This document shows, in pieces, positions 5,491 through 16,991 of a stretch of 20,392 nucleotides of DNA (positions are counted from its first letter, which is position 1; every line of letters begins with the position of its first letter). The notes under the pieces were generated by a model. It saw only the letters and a program-made list of their open reading frames with translations. It made no database searches and was not told the origin of the DNA. The stretch covers positions 1 to 20,392 of IMG/VR virus record IMGVR_UViG_3300018049_000184. One strand, given 5' to 3'. Source of the stretch: a virus. Position numbers and translations under genes: made by a program.

Positions 5491-5563
5491 TAGTGTATAA
5501 AGTAGTGTATAGATGGTATATTTTTAGGTATAAAAAGGAATAATGTATAAAGTAGTGTAGAAA
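5491..5563 (+). repeat. Two near-identical 19-base direct repeats, left attP arm
   Basis: 5491-5509 (tagtgtataaagtagtgta) and 5541-5559 (taatgtataaagtagtgta) differ at one base and start 50 bases apart, about five helical turns. Each holds two copies of the arm-site motif. The even spacing would place four integrase contacts on one DNA face. Confidence 0.75.
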
Positions 5564-5596
5564 TTTATCAAAACCATAGGGTTTATGGGGGTGTCA

Positions 5597-5646
5597 TTGG
5601 TTTGTGGTACCGGATGTCGGGGGTTCAAATCCCCTCAGCCACCCCA
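5597..5646 (+). other. attP core: 3' half of a tRNA-His(GTG) gene
   Basis: Anticodon stem ttggt/accgg (5597-5601 with 5609-5613, two G-T pairs) around a 7-base loop with anticodon GTG at 5604-5606. Then a 5-base variable region, T stem ggggg/cccct around TTCAAAT (5619-5635), acceptor 3' strand cagccac (5636-5642), C at position 73 and an encoded CCA (5644-5646). C73 is the usual discriminator of bacterial tRNA-His. No 5' acceptor strand, D arm or 5' anticodon flank can be found upstream, so it is not a working tRNA gene. It would recreate the 3' half of the host gene on integration. Crossover is probably at or near the anticodon loop. Confidence 0.88.
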
Positions 5647-5673
5647 TCTAAAACCCGCAGAATATAAGGCTTT

Positions 5674-5704
5674 TCCCCTAGTTTCGGCTAGGGGATTTTT
5701 TTTT
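5674..5704 (+). terminator. Strong intrinsic terminator next to attP core
   Basis: An 8-base stem tcccctag/ctagggga (5674-5681 with 5688-5695), 6-base loop, then nine T. It follows the tRNA fragment by 27 bases, where a host tRNA terminator would be, so it may be part of the host-derived identity segment. It would also stop late/lysis transcription before the integrase. Confidence 0.85.
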
Positions 5705-5825
5705 GTCTTTTTTATTTATACACTACCACCCCCAAAAACAGTATATTGAAGGTATTAAATAAGTGTATAAAAGGTGTATTGATACCTTTGCAGTATTCGG
5801 TTTCGTAGGAAAAATAAATTAGTGC

Positions 5826-5855
5826 TTGCATAATATACCATTTAAATGGTATAAA
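5826..5855 (+). promoter_or_regulatory. Predicted integrase promoter with repressor operator
   Basis: TTGCAT (5826-5831), 18-base spacer and TATAAA (5850-5855). The spacer contains the perfect 20-base palindrome TATACCATTTAAATGGTATA (5834-5853, core TACC-N8-GGTA). The same half-sites occur at the repressor and recombination promoters. A repressor bound here would cover the polymerase site and silence the integrase operon. Confidence 0.6.
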
Positions 5856-5895
5856 TAGTTATACACTAAATAATAACTTATAAAAACGAGGTAAT

Positions 5896-6084
5896 ATGAA
5901 AAAAAATTTATTAACATCTAAAGACATAGAATTTATCAAACAATGTATGTTTTATTTTTTAGACGATAGACATACTTCAATGGACACTAAACGTGAATTA
6001 AAAAATTATGAATATAAAGTTCATAGTATTGATGAAAAATTATGTGAAATGGAAAACACTATTATTAACCAACTAACGAGGTGA
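5896..6084 (+). CDS. Small protein upstream of the integrase, possible directionality factor
   Basis: A 62-residue protein, mostly helical by composition with many charged residues (MKKNLLTSKDIEFIKQCMFY...). It is preceded by gagg (5889-5892), and its stop codon lies inside the ribosome site of the integrase, so the two are translationally coupled. Position suggests an excisionase or integration accessory factor, but no winged-helix or MerR-type motif is evident. Family not recognised. Confidence 0.6.
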   Translation: MKKNLLTSKDIEFIKQCMFYFLDDRHTSMDTKRELKNYEYKVHSIDEKLCEMENTIINQLTR

Positions 6085-6086
6085 AA

Positions 6087-7217
6087 ATGAAATACGAATT
6101 TATAAGCAGTTCAAAAATTAAAAGAGGTAAAAATACATTTGGAAGAATCAGCTATCGTGAAAATGGTGTACGAAAAGTTTTAGATTGTTCCATTGATAAT
6201 TTAGAACAATATATTTCAAAATTTAAATATGGATTAGATAAACCAACACTCAATGCCTTAACTAAAAAATATTTAGAACACAGACAACAATTAGTTCGTA
6301 ATAGACAAAATGGTGGATATGAAGGTATTAAATTAAGAACCTATGATACGGATTATAATTGGATCAAAAATCATATTCTTAAACATTGGGGGTCAATGTT
6401 AATTGAGGATATTAATGAACGTTTTATTTTAGATACTGTAAAACCATTTCTTAAAAATCCATTAAATTATAAAACCTTTTCTACGGGTAGAAAAATTTAT
6501 AACCAATTACAAAAGATATTAGATTTTGGAATGGAACGTTCAATAATTAAACCTATTCGCTTTTTTAAATTTACATCAAAGAGTGATGGACGAAATGTTG
6601 AACCGAAAACTATTAGACCTATTCCAACAGTAGATGAAGTAAGAAAAATTATATCTATTGTATCACCATATTACCGAGTCTTTTTATTTACACTTGCGAC
6701 AACGGGTTTACGTGCTGGTGAATGTTTAGGTTTACAATGGGATGATATTAATTTTGCTAAAAAACAAATGACAATAAAACGAACTGTTAGTCTAAAGACG
6801 ATTGACATTCCAAAAACAGAAAATGGATTTAGAACCATTCCATTACCTGATTACTTAATAGGTATGTTAAAAAAGTTTAAATTAGATATACACAAATATG
6901 TCCAGCTATCTCAGCCAACTGATTTTATATTTCCTGATACAAAAGGTAGTTATAAAAATATTGATATTTGTCGTACTAATTCAATTTATTTTGCTAATAA
7001 AAAATTAGGTTATAAATTTGATCTACAATCATTCAGACGTTTTTACCGAACGGAAATGGAATTAATATTTGATGAATTAAACCTAAATAAAATGGTTTTG
7101 AATTATCGTTTCGGTCATTCTGCAAGAAATGTAGCTGAACAACATTATATTGATAGAAAAAGAGTGAATGATAGTGAAAACGAGTCTGTAAACATCTTGG
7201 CTAACAAGATTATTTAG
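6087..7217 (+). CDS. int: Tyrosine-type site-specific integrase
   Basis: ATG at 6087 is chosen because gagg (6079-6082) sits 5 bases upstream. A GTG at 6081 is in frame but overlaps that site. The product is 376 residues: an N-terminal arm-binding part (about 1-50), a core-binding SAM-like part (about 50-160) and a catalytic part. Visible catalytic positions are Arg209 (ATTGLRAGECLGL), Lys243 (PKTENGFRTIPL), Arg317 in box II, His344 (RFGHSARN) and the nucleophile Tyr354 (EQHYID). Box II reads LQSFRRF, so Gln314 stands where family members normally have His. It lies beside attP and should integrate the phage into the host tRNA-His gene. Confidence 0.93.
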   Translation: MKYEFISSSKIKRGKNTFGRISYRENGVRKVLDCSIDNLEQYISKFKYGLDKPTLNALTKKYLEHRQQLVRNRQNGGYEGIKLRTYDTDYNWIKNHILKHWGSMLIEDINERFILDTVKPFLKNPLNYKTFSTGRKIYNQLQKILDFGMERSIIKPIRFFKFTSKSDGRNVEPKTIRPIPTVDEVRKIISIVSPYYRVFLFTLATTGLRAGECLGLQWDDINFAKKQMTIKRTVSLKTIDIPKTENGFRTIPLPDYLIGMLKKFKLDIHKYVQLSQPTDFIFPDTKGSYKNIDICRTNSIYFANKKLGYKFDLQSFRRFYRTEMELIFDELNLNKMVLNYRFGHSARNVAEQHYIDRKRVNDSENESVNILANKII

Positions 7218-7238
7218 GACGATATATTAGTCGTCCTA
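7215..7238. terminator. Hairpin between convergent integrase and recombination operons
   Basis: Perfect 8-base stem taggacga/tcgtccta (7215-7222 with 7231-7238) beginning at the integrase stop codon, loop of 8. No T-tract on either side, so it may be a weak or factor-assisted terminator, or an RNA 3'-end stabiliser, for the converging transcripts. Confidence 0.45.
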
Positions 7239-7276
7239 CCCCCTAAATCGTTGCCTACGGGCTTTATTTTGGCTCG

Positions 7277-7435
7277 TTATTTTAGTTTTTGTAGCAGATT
7301 TCTTACTGTTTCAGAAATTCTATAATATTCTTCTTCAGTTACTTCTTTTGGCAACATTTTTAAATTACTACGTAAATAATTTTGATAATGAACCATTGAT
7401 TTTGTTAGTAATTTTTTTTCTTCTGTACTAAACAT
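7277..7435 (-). CDS. Small helical protein of unknown function
   Basis: A 52-codon frame, MFSTEEKKLLTKSMVHYQNY..., rich in Lys, Glu, Leu and Tyr and probably helical. ATG at 7435 lies immediately after the stop of the gene upstream (7436-7573), so it is the last gene of the leftward recombination operon. Family not recognised. Confidence 0.55.
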   Translation of the reverse strand: MFSTEEKKLLTKSMVHYQNYLRSNLKMLPKEVTEEEYYRISETVRNLLQKLK

Positions 7436-7573
7436 TTAAAAATTATTTAAAATTTCTTCGCAATCATAATGAATGAATTGCCATTTATTATCAATATACC
7501 TAAATCCGTGTTTCATTGTTTCTGTATCTAAAAATTCACCACAGACGGGGCAATTTAATTTGTAGTGTTGCAT
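7436..7573 (-). CDS. Small single-CxxC zinc-ribbon-like protein
   Basis: A 45-residue frame beginning MQHYKLNCPVCGEFLDTETM. The CPVC knuckle near residues 8-11, plus a later His-Tyr-Asp-Cys (HYDC, about 36-39), gives four possible metal ligands, so a small zinc-binding fold is likely. It fits exactly between its neighbours in the leftward operon. Function unknown. Confidence 0.55.
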   Translation of the reverse strand: MQHYKLNCPVCGEFLDTETMKHGFRYIDNKWQFIHYDCEEILNNF

Positions 7574-7590
7574 CTTAACTTTTTTAATCA

Positions 7591-7794
7591 CTACTGTTTT
7601 TTGTCCTCACAATGTTGTCTGTATTTTATGTAACCGAATATATGAAGTGATGGATTTTTGTCATCGGTTTTTTGCCAGCCGACATCCACCCATTCACAAT
7701 CATATAATCGTTCATTTCTTTTTTTTTGATGAATAAACTCTACATTATCCCAAGCAAAAAAATTTAAAATTAAACTGATAAATACTGTTTCCAT
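7591..7794 (-). CDS. Hypothetical protein coupled to ssb
   Basis: A 67-residue frame whose ATG overlaps the TAA of the ssb gene (TAATG seen on the minus strand). It has a hydrophobic N-terminus (METVFISLILNFFAW) and then a charged, aromatic-rich body (CEWVDVGWQKTDDKNPSLHI). The coupling supports reality. The N-terminal stretch could be a membrane segment, but it is short. Family not recognised. Confidence 0.5.
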   Translation of the reverse strand: METVFISLILNFFAWDNVEFIHQKKRNERLYDCEWVDVGWQKTDDKNPSLHIFGYIKYRQHCEDKKQ

Positions 7795-8180
7795 TAAAAC
7801 GGAATGTCGTCATCAGGTAGTTCAACAGATTCTTTTTTTTGTGGCGATCCATTAGCGGAATCTTTTTTAGGTAAAAACTCAAAATTACCAAAAATAATTG
7901 AGGCATTTTTCTTTTTATTACCATCTTTATCTTCATACGTTGATAATTGTAATTCACCATTAAAAACAAGACCCGTACCTTTTTTAAAAAAACCAGCTAA
8001 ACTTTCAGCCCGTTTTGTATTTAAAATGACACAATCAATCCAGCTAGTCTTTTGGTTTTCTTTACTACCCGTATTTTTTGAACCAATACTAAATTTAAGT
8101 ATTTTATTTTCAGGATTAGTTTTTGATGTGATTAACTCAGAATCTTGTCCAAGATAACCACTACCATTAATATTCAACAT
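7794..8180 (-). CDS. ssb: Single-stranded DNA-binding protein
   Basis: A 128-residue OB-fold protein. The first 100 residues carry the SSB pattern (LNINGSGYLGQDSEL, then FSIGSK, WIDCVIL, FFKKGTGLVFNGEL, YEDKDGN), followed by a linker and the acidic tail DDDIPF that recruits replication and recombination partners. It lies 8 bases downstream of the ERF gene, so it coats the single strands produced by the nuclease and handed to the annealing protein. Size is typical of phage SSBs. Confidence 0.93.
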   Translation of the reverse strand: MLNINGSGYLGQDSELITSKTNPENKILKFSIGSKNTGSKENQKTSWIDCVILNTKRAESLAGFFKKGTGLVFNGELQLSTYEDKDGNKKKNASIIFGNFEFLPKKDSANGSPQKKESVELPDDDIPF

Positions 8181-8188
8181 AATATCTC

Positions 8189-8842
8189 CTATTGGTTAGT
8201 TGTTATTTTTATTTCATCCTTCAGCTTTAACACTTGTTGTAAAACATCAGAATCCTCGTCTTTTAACTTTTTGTAAATTGGTGAGAATACTTTTAATAAT
8301 TTTCCTCCCGCACCCCCTTTACAATCCATTAACTGTTTATAATCATCAGGATATTTTTCTTTAAATTTAGTAAATTGACGTTCATCAATTTCTTTTTGCG
8401 GTTCAACCCGATAGCTGTGTCCACCATTACCTTTTGGTTTTTCTTTTAATGGATTATCTAAATCGTGGTCGTTGTATTCTGCTAGTCCTAATATAGACAT
8501 CAAGCCATATCGTCTTGCATACGATATTGATGCCCCTATGGATTGTAATTTAGAATCACCCGCTTTTTCAGATTCATATAACCGAACACCATCATCACTA
8601 ATAAATGAACCATCTTTATGTCTTATGGTTGTTTGTAAATAGCTATGTTCGTTAATTAATATTGAACGTTGTGTAAAATATAAATCACATTCATTCAATA
8701 TTGGTTTAATTTCACTAATTAGGGTCGGTAGTTCAAAATATTGTCCTTTAAAGGCTGATTTTTTTTCACCCTTTATCCCATCAAACAATGAGTGAAACTT
8801 ACACATTGATTCGTGAATTTTTCCTTCATTTACAGATTCCAT
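8189..8842 (-). CDS. erf: ERF-family single-strand annealing recombinase
   Basis: A 217-residue protein with the ERF (essential recombination function, PF04404) core: FELPTLISEIKPILNE, TTIRHKDG and the signature GASISYARRYGLMSILGL followed by an acidic stretch (NDHDLD) at about residues 103-128. The variable C-terminal third is charged. ERF proteins anneal complementary single strands and help to circularise or recombine phage genomes. It overlaps the nuclease gene by 13 bases and is followed by ssb, a three-part recombination set like lambda Exo-Bet plus SSB. Confidence 0.9.
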   Translation of the reverse strand: MESVNEGKIHESMCKFHSLFDGIKGEKKSAFKGQYFELPTLISEIKPILNECDLYFTQRSILINEHSYLQTTIRHKDGSFISDDGVRLYESEKAGDSKLQSIGASISYARRYGLMSILGLAEYNDHDLDNPLKEKPKGNGGHSYRVEPQKEIDERQFTKFKEKYPDDYKQLMDCKGGAGGKLLKVFSPIYKKLKDEDSDVLQQVLKLKDEIKITTNQ

Positions 8843-9867
8843 ATTCTTTTCACCTCTTCTGTAACGTCAGAACCTAAGTCGTACCAAAATTCATTTAGGT
8901 CAGGAGGTTCTATTAACTCAGTTAATAAAAACGGATCGTTTACCTTCTTTAGCAAGTTTTGACGACTTAAAGCAATCCGCCTCGCTTTTTCAACATATCC
9001 ATCCAATGATTCCTGAGATAATAATTCACAGTTATCTTGACTAAATATTTTGAAATCTTTTTCTGTGGCATAAACAATTATTGGTTTCTTTTTTGTTGCC
9101 CGACAGTATAATGCTAGTTGCATTATGTCGTTATTGTAAGGTTCTTTAACAACGGGAGGACTATCACATTCAAAATGTTTTTCCTCAAACATAATCTTAC
9201 ATTCACAATCTTGTTCATTTACATACACATCAACTTCATCTTTAGTTTTAAATACTCGTTTTGTTTTAGACCACATTCCATTTTTTAGGATGCGATAAAC
9301 ATTATATCGGTCAGGAACTTCACGAATACGATTCCATTTAGTTTTTAATTCAATGACGTTTTCACGAGTTCTAAAATCTGTATATCCCGTAATGGGAATA
9401 TCTAATTCAGGTAATTCTAAATTTATAGGTGTTTCTAAATCACATTCACTAACACCTAATTCTGTAAAAGCAAATTGCACGTTATTGTATGTAGGCATAA
9501 ACCGTTTTTCATATTCATCCGCCTTAAATAAATCTTTAGCATCATACTTATCTCTTCTTTTTCTAAAATCATTAAGTACGTCTTCCATAACGGATTTAAA
9601 GGGTAATTTTTTTATATCAATATCTTGAAATAATTGGTGTACGGCTGAACCCGCCCTTGCCATAGGTGATGCTTTTTTTTTCTTTTTTATTTCAGGGTCA
9701 AGTAAAAAATAATTAAGCAACCAAGATTGAATAGGTTGTTTGAGTTGAGAAGGGGAAAAATGGTCAAAATCTAAATCAATGTAAATTTGAGGCAGAACGT
9801 CTTTAATCTTGGGTTCTGTATCGCAAGGTGTTGAATCTTCGCTATATATTGTGGTTACGTTATTCAT
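8830..9867 (-). CDS. RecB/Cas4-like PD-(D/E)XK exonuclease, recombination partner
   Basis: ATG at 9867 gives 345 residues. A TTG nine bases earlier is in frame but lies inside the predicted operator and near the start of the RNA. Motifs of PDDEXK_1/RecB-type nucleases are present: FSPSQL near the N-terminus, His77 (RAGSAVHQLF), Asp164 (GYTDF), Glu173-x-Lys175 (VIELKTK) and Gln250 with Tyr254 (DIMQLALYCRAT). A segment of about 60 residues (about 184-242) separates the last two motifs and is unlike the compact family core. Being first in the operon with erf and ssb, it probably resects double-strand ends, as lambda Exo does. Confidence 0.88.
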   Translation of the reverse strand: MNNVTTIYSEDSTPCDTEPKIKDVLPQIYIDLDFDHFSPSQLKQPIQSWLLNYFLLDPEIKKKKKASPMARAGSAVHQLFQDIDIKKLPFKSVMEDVLNDFRKRRDKYDAKDLFKADEYEKRFMPTYNNVQFAFTELGVSECDLETPINLELPELDIPITGYTDFRTRENVIELKTKWNRIREVPDRYNVYRILKNGMWSKTKRVFKTKDEVDVYVNEQDCECKIMFEEKHFECDSPPVVKEPYNNDIMQLALYCRATKKKPIIVYATEKDFKIFSQDNCELLSQESLDGYVEKARRIALSRQNLLKKVNDPFLLTELIEPPDLNEFWYDLGSDVTEEVKRIWNL

Positions 9868-9868
9868 A

Positions 9869-9914
9869 TATACCAATAATGGTATAAATATAACAAAACT
9901 ACAACGATTATCAA
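9869..9914 (-). promoter_or_regulatory. Predicted leftward promoter (PL-like) with operator
   Basis: On the minus strand, TTGATA (9914-9909), a 16-base spacer and TATATT (9892-9887). The operator TACC-AATAAT-GGTA (9871-9884, inside the 18-base palindrome 9869-9886) covers the predicted start of transcription near 9880. The ATG of the nuclease gene is at 9867, so the leader would be only about 14 bases and shows no clear ribosome site. Confidence 0.6.
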
Positions 9915-9933
9915 GAATAAAATCGTTATTTAA

Positions 9934-10563
9934 TCAAATATGTTTAAAAATTGCCTTAATTACGTAAATTTCTATAACAACGTCTTTTTTTATTTCTGTA
10001 ATAAAATTATGTGGATTTTCATACGTGTTTTTATCTTCATTTATCCTTTTTATGTAAATGTTGTCGTTATCAACTTTATCAAATATGCCAAAAGCAATAA
10101 CGTTGTCGTTTTGTACGGCATACTCAATTACAATTTCTTCACCTTCTCCATAACTAGAGTCTTTTTCTATTAATACAAACTCATTTGGTTTTATACGTGG
10201 ATAAGAACACATACCGGGTACTTTTACAAAATAATAATTGCCATCATTGTCCCATTTACTGTAACGTCTAGGTGTCTTATCTTTTAAGCTAACTCGTTGA
10301 TCAATAGTCGTTTTACCAATTAAGGGAATACCTTTATTTGTATTTAAACTTTGATTAGCTTCACCAAGTTGCATCCGAACCAATTCGTCTACGGGCATAT
10401 TAAAAGCCTTAGCTATATTGCTTAATGTTTCTGTACGTAGTCGTCTGACACCTTTTTCTATACGAGATACTTCAGCCTGAGTGCAACCTAATCGTTCAGC
10501 TACTTCTCTTTGGGTTAAATTAAAACGTAATCTAAGTTCAGACAATAAAGATTTGTCTTTCAT
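9934..10563 (-). CDS. cI: CI-like prophage repressor, HTH plus S24/LexA-type C-terminal domain
   Basis: A 209-residue protein. Residues 8-60 are an XRE-type helix-turn-helix (LTQREVAERLGCTQAEVSRIEKG). Residues about 78-205 look like the S24 dimerisation/peptidase fold: VPGMCSYPRIKPNEFVLIE at 115-133 and YIKRI with Lys172. The family nucleophile Ser aligns with Cys119, and no Ala-Gly cleavage pair is seen in the linker. It is divergent from the cro-like gene and has a good ribosome site (GAGGTG, 10568-10573). It should hold lysogeny by binding the TACC/GGTA palindromes found at several promoters. Whether it self-cleaves after DNA damage is doubtful. Confidence 0.9.
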   Translation of the reverse strand: MKDKSLLSELRLRFNLTQREVAERLGCTQAEVSRIEKGVRRLRTETLSNIAKAFNMPVDELVRMQLGEANQSLNTNKGIPLIGKTTIDQRVSLKDKTPRRYSKWDNDGNYYFVKVPGMCSYPRIKPNEFVLIEKDSSYGEGEEIVIEYAVQNDNVIAFGIFDKVDNDNIYIKRINEDKNTYENPHNFITEIKKDVVIEIYVIKAIFKHI

Positions 10564-10581
10564 TTTTCACCTCTAATAAGA

Positions 10582-10609
10582 AATATACCATTTAAGTATA
10601 TTATTACAA
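10582..10609 (-). promoter_or_regulatory. Predicted repressor promoter (PRM-like) with operator
   Basis: Minus strand TTGTAA (10609-10604), 16-base spacer, TATATT (10587-10582). The sequence TATACCATTTAAGTATA on the plus strand (10584-10600) fills the spacer. One half-site (TATACC) is intact and the other is diverged (GTATA), which would suit weaker, autoregulatory binding. Confidence 0.5.
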
Positions 10610-10663
10610 GTAAAAAGAATGTTTTTACATAACAAGCAATAATTTATAGATATAACAGTTTAT

Positions 10664-10692
10664 TATACATAAATAGGTATTAATGGTATAAA
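10664..10692 (+). promoter_or_regulatory. Predicted rightward early promoter (PR-like) with operator
   Basis: TATACA (10664-10669), 17-base spacer, TATAAA (10687-10692). Operator-like TACA-N6-GGTA lies at 10666-10679, and a second GGTATA half-site at 10685-10690 overlaps the -10. The promoter points at the cro-like gene. The -35 is a weak match, so the exact promoter is uncertain, but the operator half-sites are clear. Confidence 0.45.
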
Positions 10693-10750
10693 ATTAATTA
10701 TAAAGACGAAAAAACTTGCCAAATAAAAAAAATTTCGTTATTTGTTAAAT

Positions 10751-10966
10751 ATGAAACTTAAAGATTATTTAAAAGAAAATAAACTAACAGAAGTAAATTT
10801 TGCCGAAATGTTAGGGTGTAAACAACCCACAATATCACGATACATTAATCAAAAACGAATTCCAAAAAAACAGATAATGCAAAAAATTAATGAGTTAACT
10901 AACGGCAACGTTAATAAAAACGACTTTCAACGGGGTGATGATAGTGGGGAAATCTCAGCGAATTAA
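10751..10966 (+). CDS. cro: Cro-like small HTH regulator
   Basis: A product of about 71 residues from ATG at 10751 (a TTG three codons upstream is less likely). The helix-turn-helix is LTEVNFAEMLGCKQPTISRYINQKRIP, typical of short Cro/YdaS-type phage regulators with no C-terminal domain. It is divergent from the repressor, separated by an operator-bearing gap, and is the first gene of the rightward operon. No ribosome site is evident upstream. It probably opposes the repressor at the shared operators. Confidence 0.82.
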   Translation: MKLKDYLKENKLTEVNFAEMLGCKQPTISRYINQKRIPKKQIMQKINELTNGNVNKNDFQRGDDSGEISAN

Positions 10967-11258
10967 AGGCAGTTCTTTTGAACGAGAAATAGTTAATAAA
11001 CACAAAGACTGGGGTGTTGATGCCAAACGTGTTCCATTATCAGGAGCAACTGACTTCGCCAAACACGATGTAATGATCAGCGGAATTTCCGCAGAATGTA
11101 AAATTAGAGCAAACGGATTTAAACAAATTTATGATTGGTTAGCGGAAGAACCTGACGTATTGATTTGTCGTGCCGATAGAAAAGAAACGTTTTATGTATT
11201 GCCTGAAAAAACGTGGATGCAGTTTTTAAAATGGTCAAAAATAATTAACGATGGATGA
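10938..11258 (+). CDS. Holliday-junction-resolvase-like PD-(D/E)XK nuclease
   Basis: A 106-residue protein from ATG 10938 (GTG 10935 is also in frame). It has the Hjc/resolvase-like pattern: KGSSFEREIVN with Glu15, RVPLSGATDFAKHDVMI with Asp44, and AECK with Glu54 and Lys56. The serine-rich turn before the acidic core (PLSGA) is typical of archaeal-type resolvases found in phages. It overlaps the cro-like gene by 29 bases and the next gene by 8. Probable role: resolving branched DNA during replication and recombination before packaging. Confidence 0.78.
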   Translation: MIVGKSQRIKGSSFEREIVNKHKDWGVDAKRVPLSGATDFAKHDVMISGISAECKIRANGFKQIYDWLAEEPDVLICRADRKETFYVLPEKTWMQFLKWSKIINDG

Positions 11259-11463
11259 GATACGTGTTTTACCTCCCGAACCCACAGTATTACCTGAAGA
11301 AAAATTATTTATCGCCGTACTTAGACAAGCGATTATTGATTACGTTAAGTTTCGTAAACAAAAAGATTATGAATGGTTTTTTTCTGACGATTGTAAAGAA
11401 ATTTGCCAATGGATTGATGTTTCGCAATCGTGGATCATCAGAATTATTAAGAACATTAAATGA
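11251..11463 (+). CDS. Small acidic/aromatic protein, possible HTH
   Basis: A 70-residue protein: MDEIRVLPPEPTVLPEEKLF, a helix with RQAIIDYVKFR, then EWFFSDDCKEICQWIDVSQSWIIRIIK. The C-terminal SDD-x-I-C-x-W-I-D-V-S-x-x-W-I-x-x-I pattern resembles a small DNA-binding helix-turn-helix common in phage early operons. It overlaps both neighbours by a few bases. No certain function. Confidence 0.6.
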   Translation: MDEIRVLPPEPTVLPEEKLFIAVLRQAIIDYVKFRKQKDYEWFFSDDCKEICQWIDVSQSWIIRIIKNIK

Positions 11464-12257
11464 AGAAACACAAAATATTAGATTTATTTTCAGGAATAGG
11501 TGGATTTAGTTATGGATTTGAAATGGCTAATTTGGGTGAAACTATTGCATTTGTTGAAAAGGAAAAGTTTTGTCAGAAAGTTTTAAGAAAGCATTGGAAG
11601 GATGTTCCAATAATAGACGACATAAGGAAAGTTAATGGAAAAGACTTTGGTACAGCAACAATTATTTCAGGAGGATTCCCTTGCCAACCCTTCTCCGTTG
11701 CTGGAAAAAGAAAAGGCAAAGATGACGACAGATACTTGTGGGATGAAACTATTAGAGTTGTTGCCGAATGCAAACCGAAATGGTTTATTGGAGAAAATGT
11801 TGACGGCATTGTTAACATCTCCAATGGTACAATCTTGCGACAGATACAAGAAGATTTGGAAAAAGAGGGTTTCCAAGTCCAATGTCTTGTTATTCCAGCT
11901 TCAAGCATCGGTGCTTGGCATCAAAGAAAAAGGGTTTGGATTATCGGACAAAATGTATCCGACTCCATTAAACACGGATTGGAAATACCAGTCATACAAT
12001 CCAATAACATACAAACTTCCAAAGCAAAAAAAAATGTCTACGGAAGTTTTGAAAAACAACAAACCTGGTGGCAAGCTCAATCCGAACTTTGTGGAGTTCC
12101 TAATGGGGTATCCTACGAATTGGACAAAGGTAGAGCCAACAGAATCAAATCACTCGGAAACTCAATCGTGCCACAAATCGCCCAACTTATCGGAGAATCA
12201 ATTTTGAAAGCTGAAGATGATGAAAAACAAACACATAAACAAATACTTGGCGATTGA
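11460..12257 (+). CDS. C5-cytosine DNA methyltransferase
   Basis: A 265-residue protein with the C5-methyltransferase motifs in order: motif I LDLFSGIGGFSYGF (8-20), motif IV GGFPCQPFSVAGKRKG with the nucleophile Cys75, motif VI ENV (112-114), motif VIII QRKR (155-158), and motifs IX-X RANRIKSLGNSIVPQIA (225-241). Only about 65 residues separate motifs VIII and IX, a small target-recognition region, and no cognate recognition site can be named. It would put a methyl group on carbon 5 of cytosine in phage DNA, for protection from host nucleases or as a base for further modification. Its codons use more C/G at third positions than neighbouring genes, which suggests separate origin or a second coding constraint. 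Confidence 0.93.
   Translation: MKKHKILDLFSGIGGFSYGFEMANLGETIAFVEKEKFCQKVLRKHWKDVPIIDDIRKVNGKDFGTATIISGGFPCQPFSVAGKRKGKDDDRYLWDETIRVVAECKPKWFIGENVDGIVNISNGTILRQIQEDLEKEGFQVQCLVIPASSIGAWHQRKRVWIIGQNVSDSIKHGLEIPVIQSNNIQTSKAKKNVYGSFEKQQTWWQAQSELCGVPNGVSYELDKGRANRIKSLGNSIVPQIAQLIGESILKAEDDEKQTHKQILGD
11947..12207 (+). other. Second, methyltransferase-like reading frame inside the methyltransferase gene
   Basis: The +1 frame is open from 11635 to the stop at 12205-12207, 190 codons, long for so AT-rich a genome. From 11947 it reads SDKMYPTP, then GGKLNPNFVEFLMGYPTNWT and ends ETQSCHKSPN. The LNP-x-x-VEWLMG-x-P-x-GWT pattern is known to me as the recognition-region signature of another group of phage C5-methyltransferases. 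A switch of +1 at the A-run 11950-11953 would join motifs I-VIII to this alternative ending, giving about 249 residues. This may be overprinting, a decayed ancestral frame, or a frameshift switch. Confidence 0.4.
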
Positions 12258-12456
12258 CGTGTTGGAATTTGTAACTGAACAGTTAAAGAATGGAATGACG
12301 TTAAAAGAAGTTGCTGAGAATTGGTTGGATAATTATGAATCTATTAACCTGACTTATGGCAATATTATCAATGCATTAATCCGCCAACATCAAAAGAGTT
12401 TTGAAAAGATTAGTAATGGGGAAATGAACCAAATGGGGTCTTATGATTACGATTAA
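12217..12456 (+). CDS. Small early protein of unknown function
   Basis: A 79-residue protein with two adjacent ATG codons (12217, 12220) inside the end of the methyltransferase gene. A helical segment (IDVLEFVTEQLKNGMTLKEVAENWLDNYESI) looks like a small helix-turn-helix or response-type fold (TLKEVAENWLDNY...LTYGNIINALIRQH). DNA binding is possible. It overlaps the next gene by 14 bases. Confidence 0.55.
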   Translation: MMKNKHINKYLAIDVLEFVTEQLKNGMTLKEVAENWLDNYESINLTYGNIINALIRQHQKSFEKISNGEMNQMGSYDYD

Positions 12457-12952
12457 ATTAACACCCGAAGTTTATGATAATGCCATTTCACTTGCTCATT
12501 TTCGTTATCAAATGAGTCGGGCAAGTAATTTAAAAAATCAAAAACAAGATAAAACACGAACTGAATTAGATATAGAAAAATTAGGGGCTAAAGGTGAATA
12601 TGCCGTTGCCACATTGTATAACTTAAATCCGCCAATAAGTGGAGGCTGGGATTCAGGTTATGACTTATGGTTTTGTTCAAAATCAATACAAGTTAAAAGT
12701 ACGTTTCATTCTGATGGACAATTATTATTTAGATCAAAAGAAAAATTTATAGCTGACTTTGCCATCCTGGTCGTACAAGACCAAAGCTGTCCAATGAAAA
12801 TGACGATAGTGGGGGCAACGAGTAAAGATTATTTTTTCAACAATGCCGTAAAAAAAGATTTAGGAAATGGTGAAGTATACACATTAACTCAGGACAAAAT
12901 GGCTAAACCGCAAGACTTTTGGAAATATATGATGGAAAAACGTTATGCTTAA
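12443..12952 (+). CDS. Restriction-nuclease-like PD-(D/E)XK protein
   Basis: A 169-residue protein. Glu52 in GAKGEYAVATLYNL, Asp74 in SGYDLWF and Gln83-x-Lys85 in SIQVKST make a PD-(D/E)XK core with a Q-x-K variant, seen in some restriction enzymes and phage nucleases. The rest is beta-rich (FAILVVQDQ, TIVGATSKDYF). It lies one gene after the methyltransferase, so a restriction-modification pairing can be asked about, although the order and lack of other features do not prove it. Translationally coupled on both sides by short overlaps. Confidence 0.65.
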   Translation: MITIKLTPEVYDNAISLAHFRYQMSRASNLKNQKQDKTRTELDIEKLGAKGEYAVATLYNLNPPISGGWDSGYDLWFCSKSIQVKSTFHSDGQLLFRSKEKFIADFAILVVQDQSCPMKMTIVGATSKDYFFNNAVKKDLGNGEVYTLTQDKMAKPQDFWKYMMEKRYA

Positions 12953-13778
12953 AACATTAAGAGTATTATCACTCGGTGCTGGAGTGCAATCAAGTACCTT
13001 AGCTTTAATGATTCATAAAGGTGAAATACCTATGGTTGATTGTGCTATCTTTGCTGATACTCAAGCAGAACCGCCTAAAGTTTATGAATGGTTAGAATTT
13101 ATAAAAAAAACAGTAAGTTATCCCGTGCATATTGTTACGTGGAGAAATTTAGAACAAGATGTATTAGATGCAAGTCAAGGTAAGTATCAAGCATTTACAA
13201 TTCCTTTTTACACAAAAAACAAAGAAACAGAACAAAAAGGTATGTTGATGCGACAATGTACTGCTGATTATAAAATTAAACCAGTTACAAAAAAAGTAAG
13301 AGAGTTACTAGGGTATAAAAAAGGTGAACGAGTAGATTTAAAAGAAGTAAAAGTTGAAATGTTATTAGGTATATCAACAGATGAATTAAGAAGAATGAGA
13401 ATGAATAGATTACGATATATAGATAATCAATATCCACTTATAAATGATTTTGGTATGTCAAGGCAAGATTGTATAGCTTGGATGAAAGATAATGGTTATC
13501 CTATGCCTACAAAATCAGCGTGTTATTTTTGTCCTTTTCACAGCCAATCAGGTTGGAAAGAAATAAAAGAAAATGATCCTAAGTTATTTGAAAAGGCAGT
13601 TCAAATGGATAAACAAATTCGTGACCAAGAAAAATATAAAATTAAAAACAAATTTAAAGATGACCTTTATTTACATAGAAGTTGTGAACCCTTAGACAAA
13701 GCATTGGAAGATGATGGTCAGTTAGATATGTTTGATGGGTTTGATTCCATTTGTGATGAGGGTATGTGTGGTGTTTAG
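12945..13778 (+). CDS. PAPS-reductase-like / adenine nucleotide alpha-hydrolase family protein
   Basis: A 277-residue protein. Residues 8-18 (LSLGAGVQSSTLA) form the pyrophosphate-binding loop of the PAPS-reductase/ATP-pyrophosphatase (HUP) superfamily, followed by FADTQAEPPKVYEWL. Cysteines occur at RQCTADYKIKP (Cys105), SACYFCPFHS (Cys193, Cys196) and near the end (SCEP, CDEGMC), enough to hold metal or an Fe-S cluster. Members in phages are not assimilatory sulfate enzymes. Relatives activate a nucleotide with ATP or make thio- or phosphorothioate modifications (DndC type). Next to a C5-methyltransferase and a radical SAM gene, a nucleic-acid modification role is plausible but unproven. 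Confidence 0.8.
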   Translation: MLKTLRVLSLGAGVQSSTLALMIHKGEIPMVDCAIFADTQAEPPKVYEWLEFIKKTVSYPVHIVTWRNLEQDVLDASQGKYQAFTIPFYTKNKETEQKGMLMRQCTADYKIKPVTKKVRELLGYKKGERVDLKEVKVEMLLGISTDELRRMRMNRLRYIDNQYPLINDFGMSRQDCIAWMKDNGYPMPTKSACYFCPFHSQSGWKEIKENDPKLFEKAVQMDKQIRDQEKYKIKNKFKDDLYLHRSCEPLDKALEDDGQLDMFDGFDSICDEGMCGV

Positions 13779-13995
13779 TTTATTTGTAGAAATAATTGCC
13801 GTAGCTACCGCCATCACTTCTATTTATTTGTATGGAAATGGGTGGAAATATTCAGGTTATTTCGGCTTATTTTCACAGTTTTGGTGGGTATTATTCACAT
13901 ATTTGAATGAACATACGACTTTATATGTGTTGTGTTTTTTTATGATCCTAACTCATATTCGCAATATTTTTAAGATGAGGGCTAATAATGAGTAA
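13771..13995 (+). CDS. Small membrane protein, GTG start
   Basis: The open frame extends back to 13732, but a ribosome site gaggg at 13758-13762 favours GTG at 13771, giving 74 residues beginning MFSLFVEIIAVATAI. It has three hydrophobic segments: about 2-20, 27-48 (YFGLFSQFWWVLFTYL) and 52-66 (TLYVLCFFMILTHI), so it is an inner-membrane protein. It overlaps the PAPS-like gene by 8 bases and the replication gene by 8. Similar short early membrane genes are common in marine phages. Possibly a superinfection or anti-holin function, not shown. Confidence 0.6.
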   Translation: MFSLFVEIIAVATAITSIYLYGNGWKYSGYFGLFSQFWWVLFTYLNEHTTLYVLCFFMILTHIRNIFKMRANNE

Positions 13996-14803
13996 AGAAC
14001 CCGTTTACATAAATAAATCTAAATTAAAAGATAAATACGCCATTACACCTAATGCCTTAATACAAAACTCCGCCATTACTCTAGAGGCAAGAGGACTATT
14101 AGTATACTTGTTATCATTACCATCAGATTGGAAATTAAACATAAAAGACCTAAGTAAGAAAAATAACGTAGGTGAAAACAAAATTCGTAAGCTAATCAAA
14201 GAGTTAATGAAGTATCGGTATATCATTCGTACACAAAGTAGAATTAAGGACGGAACGTTCAAAAGTTTTGATTATTTCATATATGATACTCCGCAAACCC
14301 TTGAAATCCGTCCAGTTGATGATTTACCGCAAGTGGATATTCCACAAGTGGATAATCCACTAGTGGATATTGGGTACACATATAAAGTAAACAATAAACA
14401 AAGTAAACATAATACAAAAGAAACATATACTGATGCTTTTGAAGAGTTTTGGAAGTTATGTAAACGTAAACAAGGTAAAGATAGAACGTTTAAAAAATAT
14501 AAGGAAATAATTAAAACAGTAGACCCAGCCATTCTAATTAAAAAGATGAACCAATACAATCAAGAAAAGGAAGAGTGTAAAACTGAATTGCAGTATTACA
14601 AAAATCCATATACGTGGTTGCATCAAAAAGGCTGGGAGGATGAATATATAGCGGAGAAGGATGAAGAACCTACTGAAGAAAAGATATTAGAAAGCTGGTT
14701 GCATAAACATACAAAGCTGGGTTATCAGCTACCTAATGACATAGAACAAAAACTAATACAAAAAGGTATGCTTAATGAAGAAAATAAAGTTAGTTCAAAT
14801 TGA
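13988..14803 (+). CDS. Phage replication initiator with helix-turn-helix, O-like
   Basis: A 271-residue protein. The N-terminal part (about 16-95) has the winged helix-turn-helix of phage replication/Rep-organiser proteins (ITPNALIQNSAITLEARGLLVYLLSLPSDW, then KDLSKKNNVGENKIRKLIKELMKYRYI). A short proline-rich repeat (PVDDL, PQVDI, PQVDN, PLVDI, residues about 109-128) follows. The C-terminal half (FEEFWKLCKRKQGKDRTFKKYKEI...NPYTWLHQKGWEDEY) resembles helicase-loader-type or DnaT-like tails. The DNA under the linker holds iteron-like repeats, as in lambda O, so the origin may lie within the gene. Confidence 0.78.
   Translation: MSKEPVYINKSKLKDKYAITPNALIQNSAITLEARGLLVYLLSLPSDWKLNIKDLSKKNNVGENKIRKLIKELMKYRYIIRTQSRIKDGTFKSFDYFIYDTPQTLEIRPVDDLPQVDIPQVDNPLVDIGYTYKVNNKQSKHNTKETYTDAFEEFWKLCKRKQGKDRTFKKYKEIIKTVDPAILIKKMNQYNQEKEECKTELQYYKNPYTWLHQKGWEDEYIAEKDEEPTEEKILESWLHKHTKLGYQLPNDIEQKLIQKGMLNEENKVSSN
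14312..14371 (+). repeat. Four tandem 15-base iteron-like repeats, candidate replication origin
   Basis: Units start at 14312, 14327, 14342 and 14357. The last three are close copies (ccgcaagtggatatt, ccacaagtggataat, ccactagtggatatt), and the first is diverged. Each of the last two contains a palindrome (CCACAAGTGG imperfect, CCACTAGTGG perfect). They encode five-residue protein repeats in the replication initiator. Tandem repeats inside an initiator gene are the layout of lambda ori. Confidence 0.65.
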
Positions 14804-15788
14804 TGGTAAGTTGCCTAATCTTGCATTAATGAAAATGTCATCTTATTTTAAATCATTGGGTCATAAAGTTACATTTACACGTTCTGTTAATCATTTAATG
14901 TTTGAGGATGATTATGATGAAGTGTATGGATCATCAATATTTTTATTTAGTAAAAACAGAATTGAAAAACTTAAAAGTAATTATCCTGAAGCAATAATTG
15001 GTGGAACGGGTACAGATGATTGGACAAAATGTATTGGTGATTATATTGATTTAAGTTGGAATAAATTAGATTATAGTCTTTACCCTGAATATAAATTTAG
15101 TATTGGTTTTACTCAAAGAGGTTGTCGCTTAAAATGTAAATTCTGTGTTGTTCCAATAAAAGAGGGTAAGAATAAATCAGATCAAACTATTAATGAAATA
15201 TGGAGGGGTAAACCTTATCCTAAAAAAATACACTTACTTGATAATGACTTTTTTGGACAACCGCAACAAGATTGGGAATACAAAATAAATGAAATAAAAG
15301 AGGGAAATTTTAAAGTGTGTTTTAATCAAGGAATTAATATTAGGTTAATTGATGATGTAGTTGCTAAAAATTTAAGTGAAATAGATTATCGTGATGACTC
15401 ATTTAAAAATAAAAGAATCTATACAGCTTGGGATAATATTGGTGATGAAAAACGTTTTTTTAAAGGTGTTGAAACATTAACAAAGTACGGAATTAAAACA
15501 AATCATATAATGGCATATATGCTTATTGGATATGATAAAAGAGAAACGTGGGAAAGAATTTGGTATCGTTTTAATAAAATGGTTGATGTTGGTATCTTAC
15601 CTTATCCTATGGTTTACGATCCATTACAAAATAAAAGAGATTTAAAGCTGTTTCAACGATATGTAATTAGAGGTGATTATAGACATAAAAATTATGATGA
15701 ATATTTACGTCACTATCATAATAGAAACATCAATGAATATAATAAAATTATGGAGTTAGATTTTGCCAAAAAAGAAAAAGCAGTATAA
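14775..15788 (+). CDS. Radical SAM enzyme with B12-binding-like N-terminus
   Basis: A 337-residue protein. Residues 1-80 look like a Rossmann/B12-binding fold (KLVQIDGKLPNLALMKMSSYFKSLGHKVTF, then EVYGSSIFLFS and AIIGGTGTDDW) but lack the DxHxxG cobalamin motif. The [4Fe-4S]-binding cysteines are in QRGCRLKCKFC (Cys117, Cys121, Cys124, spacing C-x3-C-x2-C). The remainder fits a TIM barrel (HLLDNDFFGQ, CFNQGINIRL, AYMLIGYD). The reaction is unknown. The ATG overlaps the end of the replication gene. With the methyltransferase and PAPS-like gene in the same operon, it is a candidate base-modifying enzyme. Confidence 0.87.
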   Translation: MKKIKLVQIDGKLPNLALMKMSSYFKSLGHKVTFTRSVNHLMFEDDYDEVYGSSIFLFSKNRIEKLKSNYPEAIIGGTGTDDWTKCIGDYIDLSWNKLDYSLYPEYKFSIGFTQRGCRLKCKFCVVPIKEGKNKSDQTINEIWRGKPYPKKIHLLDNDFFGQPQQDWEYKINEIKEGNFKVCFNQGINIRLIDDVVAKNLSEIDYRDDSFKNKRIYTAWDNIGDEKRFFKGVETLTKYGIKTNHIMAYMLIGYDKRETWERIWYRFNKMVDVGILPYPMVYDPLQNKRDLKLFQRYVIRGDYRHKNYDEYLRHYHNRNINEYNKIMELDFAKKEKAV

Positions 15789-16284
15789 AGCCGAAGATTT
15801 ACGTTTTCATAATCATATTCCTATTTATCAGGACACACCAACACCTGAACAAATGAAGAAAAACGTATACGAATATGAAACGTTAGAAACAAAAGTACAA
15901 CGAGCAAGAATACTCACTCAAACATTAATGGATACATACTTATTAAAAAAACAAATAACTGAACCACAGTATGATGCGGGTATGAAATATTATAAATTAT
16001 GGCGATTATCAGGACTAGAACCACGAACAACTAGTGCATTAAAACCCGTTGTTAGTTCTAATACATCAATGGCGATAGGGGACAATCAGGGTGATTGTTA
16101 TGTTGCCTTACAAGAGGCACGATCAGCCGTAGGAAAACGATTGGTTAGCATATTGGATAAAGTGTTGCTATATAATGAACCATTAAAAGAATGGGAAAAA
16201 TCGTATGGAGTTAGACCGAAGACGGGTATGTCGGTATTAATTGTCGCTTTAGATACGTTAGCTGACTTTTGGGGAATTGGTTAA
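15763..16284 (+). CDS. Basic early-operon protein in the Q-antiterminator position
   Basis: A 173-residue protein with TTG start (15763), preceded by ggag (15752-15755) and overlapping the radical SAM gene. It begins MPKKKKQYKAEDL and ends with a helical domain (LVSILDKVLLYNEPLKEWEKSYGV, then KTGMSVLIVALDTLADFWGIG) similar in outline to helix-turn-helix regions of DUF6456-type proteins. It is the last rightward gene before the strong promoter at 16893, where lambdoid phages have Q. An antiterminator or late activator role is therefore inferred from position, not from clear homology. Confidence 0.6.
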   Translation: MPKKKKQYKAEDLRFHNHIPIYQDTPTPEQMKKNVYEYETLETKVQRARILTQTLMDTYLLKKQITEPQYDAGMKYYKLWRLSGLEPRTTSALKPVVSSNTSMAIGDNQGDCYVALQEARSAVGKRLVSILDKVLLYNEPLKEWEKSYGVRPKTGMSVLIVALDTLADFWGIG

Positions 16285-16649
16285 TCGTCAGGATTATTTT
16301 CTTTATCTTTATATTCGTCAATCTTATCGTTAACTTCCATTTGAGCATTTAAATCTAAACTAGGATCACGTGCTGGAACTGTAAATGGTTTGTCATATTT
16401 GCTCAAGGCTTCATCTAAATGTGAAACGTCAATACCATATTTTTTTAATTCACGAATATTATATTTCATACATTTAAATAAATCTAAAACAACATTGTCT
16501 TTGCTATCAGCACGAGCAATATATTTTAACATACACGCACGATTGTGATTAAGATTAAAGGCATCAACTACATCAAGAATTTCTATTTCCGTTCCGTCAG
16601 GAGTAATGCCTTTATAATAATTAGGATTTACTGGAGTCTTATTCTTCAT
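16281..16649 (-). CDS. DUF3310 family protein (SaV-like)
   Basis: A 122-residue protein with the DUF3310 pattern: PNYYKG, IEILDVVDAFNL, MLKYIARADSKDNVVLDLFKCMKYNI. This fold is found in many phages and is linked to T7 gp1.7-like nucleotide kinase proteins, though enzymatic activity here is unknown. The C-terminal 40 residues are acidic and low complexity. It converges with the preceding rightward gene (4-base overlap) and is coupled to the small membrane gene upstream. Confidence 0.82.
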   Translation of the reverse strand: MKNKTPVNPNYYKGITPDGTEIEILDVVDAFNLNHNRACMLKYIARADSKDNVVLDLFKCMKYNIRELKKYGIDVSHLDEALSKYDKPFTVPARDPSLDLNAQMEVNDKIDEYKDKENNPDD

Positions 16650-16806
16650 ACAGCATTAACCAAAAAGCAAATATAGCTATTGATATACCTAGTGCAGAGT
16701 TAGCATAATTACCATACACAAGGTGATGAATAGAATAATAAAGCATTATTGGTGATAAACACACACCAAGACAGCGAGTAAATATATAAAATAGTTTATT
16801 TTCCAT
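16639..16806 (-). CDS. Small membrane protein upstream of the DUF3310 gene
   Basis: A 55-residue frame, MENKLFYIFTRCLGVCLSPI, with hydrophobic segments at about 5-24 and 35-52 (ALGISIAIFAFWLML). Its end overlaps the DUF3310 start by 11 bases. The predicted -10 (16813-16818) would start transcription at or near this ATG, so the mRNA would be leaderless. Function unknown. Confidence 0.6.
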   Translation of the reverse strand: MENKLFYIFTRCLGVCLSPIMLYYSIHHLVYGNYANSALGISIAIFAFWLMLYEE

Positions 16807-16812
16807 AACTTA

Positions 16813-16841
16813 AATATATTCTTAAATGGTATATAAAACAA
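16813..16841 (-). promoter_or_regulatory. Predicted minus-strand promoter with operator half-site
   Basis: Minus strand TTGTTT (16841-16836), 17-base spacer, TATATT (16818-16813). The spacer carries TATACCATTTAAG, identical over 13 bases to the site at the repressor promoter. The other half (GAATATA) is diverged. Drives the membrane/DUF3310 pair. Confidence 0.5.
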
Positions 16842-16870
16842 CTAAAAAATAATAAAATATAATTAATATA

Positions 16871-16920
16871 TACCATAAAAAGGTATGGGCTATTGACAAG
16901 GTTACCTGAAATGGTACTAT
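16871..16920 (+). promoter_or_regulatory. Strong predicted late promoter with two operators
   Basis: TTGACA (16893-16898, perfect), 16-base spacer, TACTAT (16915-16920). One palindrome TACC-N7-GGTA lies at 16871-16885 just upstream of the -35, and TACC-TGAAAT-GGTA (16903-16916) fills the spacer and overlaps the -10. The first RNA base would be near 16927, at the foot of a hairpin. Points toward the packaging genes. Confidence 0.7.
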
Positions 16921-16926
16921 TTAAGA

Positions 16927-16991
16927 AAACTTTCAAAAGAAAGTTTGTTTCCTTCCCTTTAAAAAAAAAGACCGAGTCACCTAAGGCTCGG
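16927..16991 (+). terminator. Two hairpins at the start of the late transcript; second is a leftward terminator
   Basis: Hairpin 1: AAACTTTC/GAAAGTTT (16927-16934 with 16939-16946), 4-base loop, starting at the predicted +1. Hairpin 2: CCGAG/CTCGG (16972-16976 with 16987-16991), 10-base loop. On the minus strand hairpin 2 is followed by a nine-T run (16961-16969), a proper terminator for leftward RNA. On the plus strand it is followed by catttgtt, a weak T-tract, so rightward termination could be partial. A short RNA of about 70-75 bases, or an antiterminator target, could arise here. Confidence 0.6.

Follow-up and report, generated by a model that had tools for sequence, protein, structure and literature searches.

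A TATACC/GGTATA operator family probably joins integrase, recombination and membrane genes to the CI/Cro immunity switch of an uncultured phage

The window analysed here, from a temperate marine phage, is the whole 20,392-bp IMG/VR record IMGVR_UViG_3300018049_000184, and a 35,658-bp contig, IMGVR_UViG_3300023178_000140, matches it at 99.9% identity throughout the window. Its genes run in the order structural genes, att site, int, a leftward recombination operon, a leftward CI gene, Cro and the early genes (rightward), leftward DUF3310 and membrane genes, and terminase; non-coding DNA makes up ~8% of the sequence. Syntenic phages, designated here by L numbers, were found by using CI, the gene that follows cro and the recombination-operon gene as queries, and the identity of their CI proteins to that of the window is 79% in L008, ~40% in L104 and L103, 36% in L114, 28% in L112 and 26% in L263. 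A search of the genome contig set yielded no CI relatives, and no publication on the group turned up in our literature searches. The genes considered below, together with the late promoter, are:

5896–6084, plus strand: small gene preceding int, likened to an excisionase solely by its position, with no Pfam match; a 58% identical homologue lies before int in L112
6081–7217, plus strand: tyrosine integrase (PF00589, E 6.7e-10)
8830–9867, minus strand: gene 1 of the recombination operon, nuclease-like by eye (ExK motif), with no Pfam match; conserved in L104, L112, L114 and L263, and followed by ERF annealase and SSB-like genes
9934–10563, minus strand: CI-like repressor (HTH_3, PF01381, E 5.3e-15) with a weak S24-like C-terminal domain; recognition helix TQAEVSR
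10751–10966, plus strand: Cro-like protein (PF01381, E 5.6e-9); helix KQPTISR
16281–16649, minus strand: DUF3310-like gene (PF11753, sub-threshold), second of the leftward membrane-gene pair; conserved in L104, L113 and L114
16639–16806, minus strand: putative membrane protein of 55 residues
16893–16920, plus strand: late promoter TTGACA-16-TACTAT; the -35 and part of the spacer are conserved in L104 and L114

The original prediction held that palindromes of the form TACC-N6-8-GGTA, some with one diverged half, lie within or beside the -35/-10 pairs of all these transcription units. Its seven sets of coordinates are correct, including the one-sided matches at 10586-10600 and 10666-10679, and every site does fall within or beside such a pair. 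Exact copies number four in the window (5836-5851, N8; 9871-9884, N6; 16871-16885, N7; 16903-16916, N6), against 0.70 expected and with none of 100 shuffles reaching four, and all four are non-coding, while the five matches to the reversed control pattern (6823, 13735, 15609, 19331 and 19388) all lie within genes. The better unit is the half-site TATACC/GGTATA rather than the exact palindrome: 11 of its 18 copies in the window are non-coding, as are all nine copies of the longer TGGTATA/TATACCA. The site listed as a mere half at 16828-16833 proved to be part of a full 17-bp operator-like element with N5 spacing. The resulting sites, to which no strand is assigned, are:

5834–5853: candidate integrase-promoter operator TATACCATTTAAATGGTATA, a perfect N8 palindrome, readable also as two overlapping N5 left halves
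9869–9886: candidate recombination-operon operator TATACC-N6-GGTATA, one base before the start codon
10584–10600: candidate PRM operator, 17 bp, TATACC-ATTTA-AGTATA (N5), overlapping the cI -10 TATATT (10582-10587, minus strand)
10666–10690: PR (cro) site cluster, TACA-N6-GGTA (10666-10679) plus a TGGTATA that doubles as the likely cro -10
16817–16833: candidate membrane-gene operator, 17 bp, TATACC-ATTTA-AGAATA (N5), with counterparts at this position in L104 and L114
16869–16886: N7 palindrome between the membrane-gene and late promoters
16903–16916: TACC-N6-GGTA in the late-promoter spacer

Adjacency to a promoter-like pair proves little by itself, because such pairs are no commoner in the window than in shuffles (48 vs 68.5), and therefore the argument rests on the relatives. 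We took a census of intergenic hexamers over six loci (the window, L104, L114, L112, L108, which equals L008, and L109, which equals L103), and GGTATA/TATACC was the most over-represented of all, ranking first of 1256 with 41 copies against 9.2 expected; it still ranked first when the window and L008 were left out. Had the motif been equally common in coding DNA, the prediction of a regulon would have lost its ground, but the 41 intergenic copies exceed the 2.8 predicted from the coding rate more than tenfold. GGTATA was not enriched in the intergenic DNA of candidate hosts (2 vs 5.5 expected). Of the three sets of control phages, two likewise showed no enrichment, and the moderate enrichment in the third (23 vs 7.7) came largely from one site repeated in near-identical phages; TGGTAT was enriched in none of the candidate hosts or the three control sets. 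At least one copy is present in each of the 17 homologous promoter regions (shuffles: mean ~3.1, maximum 10), and together they hold 36 sites against 3.4 in shuffles, the relatives behind these counts being few and not fully independent. L263, which was found after the motif had been fixed, carries it in all three of its regions (the CI-cro, recombination and int promoters), a result matched by 8 of 5000 shuffles. By these counts the motif is group-specific and concentrated at promoters.

The placement of individual sites recurs as well. At int, the element lies between the -35 TTGCAT (5826-5831) and an overlapping -10 TATAAA (5850-5855), and the same spacer holds a site in L112 (TATACCATTTTAGATAA) and L263 (TATACCATTTTAAATTA) and a half-site in L114; elsewhere among viral contigs the perfect 20-bp palindrome was found in near-identical copies only. 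The recombination-operon site lies directly downstream of the -10 TATATT (9887-9892, minus strand; -35 TTGATA, 9909-9914), and L104 and L103 have an N6 site in the same place (TATACCATAATTGGTATA). The PRM site is near-identical in L008 and has the same N5 form in L104, L103 and L114. In L008, whose CI is identical to that of the window over residues 1-74, the cI-cro gap has diverged except for the PRM site and a PR TATACCAT block; at PR, TGGTATAAAA is retained there and the upstream half has moved. The PR sites are otherwise poorly conserved.

Spacing between halves is more restricted than the N6-8 first proposed: exact copies do exist at N6, N7 and N8, but the second half is significant only at N5 and N6, where 12 partner half-sites (at least five of six matches) stand against 0.54 expected, with a weak signal at N8 and none at N7 or N9-12. 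N5 sites occupy PRM in the window, L008, L104, L103 and L114 and the membrane gene in the window, L104 and L114; the int sites of L112 and L263 are also N5, with a weak second half. N6 sites lie at the recombination operon of the window, L104 and L103, and the N8 site at int in the window. A weight matrix made solely from the relatives' N5 sites and scanned over the whole window ranked the membrane-gene site first (20.9 bits) and the PRM site second (18.8 bits), the next match scoring 14.1 bits.

As for the proteins that would read these sites, CI and Cro are divergent, with sites between them in the window as in the relatives, and both carry an HTH_3 domain. The Peptidase_S24 match of CI falls below the Pfam cut-off (17.5 vs 23.3 bits; 22.3 bits in L114), and a low-confidence fold model (pLDDT 56) matches full-length lambda repressor best. 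In the group, Q and R occupy corresponding positions in the aligned recognition helices of both proteins, so that CI as well as Cro may read the half-site. The relatives keep both residues together with the half-site, and only in L131, a distant relative with a Cro-like gene in which no CI was found, is a shift suggested: two N5 palindromes, ATTACCAGATTGGTAAT and TTGACCAAACTGGTATT, lie before its cro (L131 2754-2835), and their form (ATTACC-N5-GGTAAT) suggests a shifted operator paired with a changed Cro helix. By alignment to the mEp043 CI, the catalytic Ser of the GDSM motif is replaced by Cys, Asp or Asn in every repressor except that of L008 (Cys in the window), and the self-cleavage Lys is absent from the aligned position in all of them. 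Simple SOS induction through CI autocleavage is therefore unlikely, as has been reported for the CB repressor of phiKO2/N15 (PMC4997575). With the catalytic residues missing and the relatives variable at these positions, an antirepressor may be needed for induction.

Taken together, the TATACC/GGTATA half-sites are very probably operators of this phage's CI/Cro immunity switch. They occur in both orientations, at promoters and often with a second half-site, and control of the integrase, the recombination operon, cI, cro and the membrane and DUF3310 genes is well supported by their conservation; one immunity switch probably acts directly on all of these. The claim of one operator family over all the promoters is supported for these genes, at which the family is kept in relatives with repressors only 26-41% identical, and is not supported for the late promoter, whose palindrome is lost in L104 and L114. 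The variable spacing (N5, N6, N8 and lone half-sites) counts against the operator reading, since a rigid dimer would not tolerate it freely. We propose that CI, and at some sites Cro, would bind as dimers to pseudo-palindromes of 17-18 bp, in which, as in lambda, a full half is often paired with a degraded one, and would exclude RNA polymerase from the promoter spacer at int and the membrane gene, from the -10 at cI and cro, and from the start site at the recombination operon. In the lysogen, CI would simultaneously silence cro, the membrane pair and the integrase and recombination genes, and during lytic growth Cro on the PRM site would turn cI off.

The same letters could instead mark promoters, as TGGTATA resembles the extended -10 (TGnTATAAT) of a host sigma factor. 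It does stand at the -10 position of cro (10684-10690), int (5847-5855) and cI; at cro, and possibly at cI, the half-site and the likely -10 coincide; and it is the cro TGGTATAAAA that L008 retains while the other half is not kept. A plain extended -10 is nevertheless excluded, because the membrane-gene site has its full TATACC half on the -35 side, within the 17-bp spacer of TTGTTT/TATATT (minus strand, 16841-16813) in three lineages, and because the recombination-operon site lies downstream of the -10; a significant second half at N5 and N6 argues the same way. Site positions and the control sets, in which TGGTAT showed no enrichment, rule it out as the whole explanation, and we regard it as very unlikely. 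Still less credible, to the point of being almost negligible, is that the sites bind a host regulator recruited by the phage, as CtrA is in some alphaproteobacterial phages: host regulators that control phages of Alphaproteobacteria are known (PMC9437464), but the half-site is not enriched in candidate-host intergenic DNA and the sites track phages carrying this CI/Cro pair.

Within the preferred reading of CI/Cro operators, two further possibilities concern who binds where. The N5 sites (PRM, membrane gene) could serve mainly Cro and the N6/N8 sites (recombination operon, int) mainly CI, in line with the consistent promoters of the two classes across relatives, with L131, in which a Cro-like gene but no CI was found and two N5 palindromes precede cro, and with phiKO2, whose Cro binds only OR3, upstream of cB (PMC4997575); but int sites are N5 in L112 and L263, and the predicted contact residues are common to CI and Cro, which leaves this division of labour a tentative and rather unlikely idea. 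Equally doubtful is direct control of the late promoter through 16903-16916 and 16869-16886. An exact palindrome does lie inside the spacer with a second just upstream, and the upstream element is partly kept in L114 and L104; however, the spacer palindrome of the window (TACCTGAAATGGTA) is lost in L104 (AACCAGAAATGATA) and L114 (AACCTGAAAAAGGC), both of which keep the promoter, N7 spacing is not significant, and the upstream element may be part of the divergent promoter of the membrane gene. Its distance from the membrane-gene site is 52 bp in the window (centre of the N7 palindrome), 51 bp in L114 (an N5-type site) and 31 bp in L104 (one half-site), and because these are close to whole helical turns they suggest cooperative pairing, three cases being few. 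The element at 16903-16916 is probably not a conserved operator, and late genes are most likely controlled by other means.

Lambda operators are 17-bp pseudo-palindromes with one strong half, one of them overlapping PRM. Like lambda, this phage has divergent cI and cro and a candidate operator overlapping PRM, and its repressor may likewise have two domains, but its CI lacks the catalytic Ser and Lys and its spacing varies. The lambda int gene is activated by CII (PMC7708051), whereas here the int promoter is covered directly by a putative operator. A direct reach broader than in lambda, as originally proposed, is a fair description, and P1, phiC31, L5 and BPs have a similar one: in P1, C1 acts through 22 operators and has the late activator Lpa under its control (PMC8546580), and phiC31 and L5 have 18-30 repressor sites (PMC4557955). 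These three share many dispersed sites with the present phage, in which a common sequence recurs at the int, recombination-operon and membrane-gene promoters of several lineages. The P1 and L5 sites are asymmetric, unlike the half-site pairs here, and L5 stoperators lie mostly outside promoters in one orientation, whereas nearly all sites here lie at promoters and in both orientations. The BPs repressor gp33 acts on four promoters and five regulatory regions spread over its genome, through two half-sites with a variable spacer and one degenerate half, its OR lying between the PR -35 and -10 (PMC4557955). Dispersed sites, variable spacer, degenerate half and a site in a promoter spacer are all shared with our phage; integration-dependent immunity (attP inside the repressor gene), 12-bp half-sites and a tetrameric repressor are not. 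The prophage of N15 and phiKO2 is a linear plasmid. Their CB protein resembles the window CI in being CI-like without self-cleavage residues, and it binds five sites at cB, cro and repA (PMC4997575), but these operators are 16 bp long and differ in sequence from TATACC/GGTATA.

Broad direct reach of a repressor is already known; distinctive here are the direct int and recombination-operon operators and the mixed spacing. A more speculative and unlikely proposal is that the integrase and recombination genes of this group of uncultured marine alphaproteobacterial phages are directly repressed by a CI that does not cleave itself, with N5 versus N6/N8 spacing splitting Cro from CI sites; integration, excision and immunity would then be joined in a single circuit that lacks a CII-type activator. 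Little is known about the lysogeny circuits of phages of marine Alphaproteobacteria with small genomes, and the group gains a readable, testable operator code that indicates integrase and recombination genes to fall under the immunity switch and could be used to predict immunity groups from metagenomes.

Several other elements of the window were observed. The att core (5599-5647) coincides exactly with the 3' half of a tRNA-His gene, from anticodon loop to CCA, and is identical at 50 of the 51 bases compared to the tRNA-His of marine Alphaproteobacteria (1.0-1.4 Mb assemblies); L114 has a similar core, and an Rfam tmRNA match at 5587-5644 (17.7 bits, below 47) is spurious, the stretch being this tRNA half. 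No integrase homologue was found in 14 candidate host genomes. GTGTATA repeats in both orientations flank the core (5493, 5505, 5717, 5763 and 5860; window 5493-5868) and are likely integrase arm-type sites, and L112, which has a different integrase, carries TGTACTGAT repeats in their place; half-sites in this arm region (5514-5532) were excluded from the regulon. The early operon includes PAPS-reductase-like and radical-SAM-like genes (12945-13778 and 14775-15788, named by eye), which may be accessory since neither was detected in L104. Between the late promoter and the start of the late genes is a GC-rich hairpin (16972-16991) that may be an attenuator or an antitermination site; the hairpins at the corresponding position in L104 and L114 differ from it in sequence.
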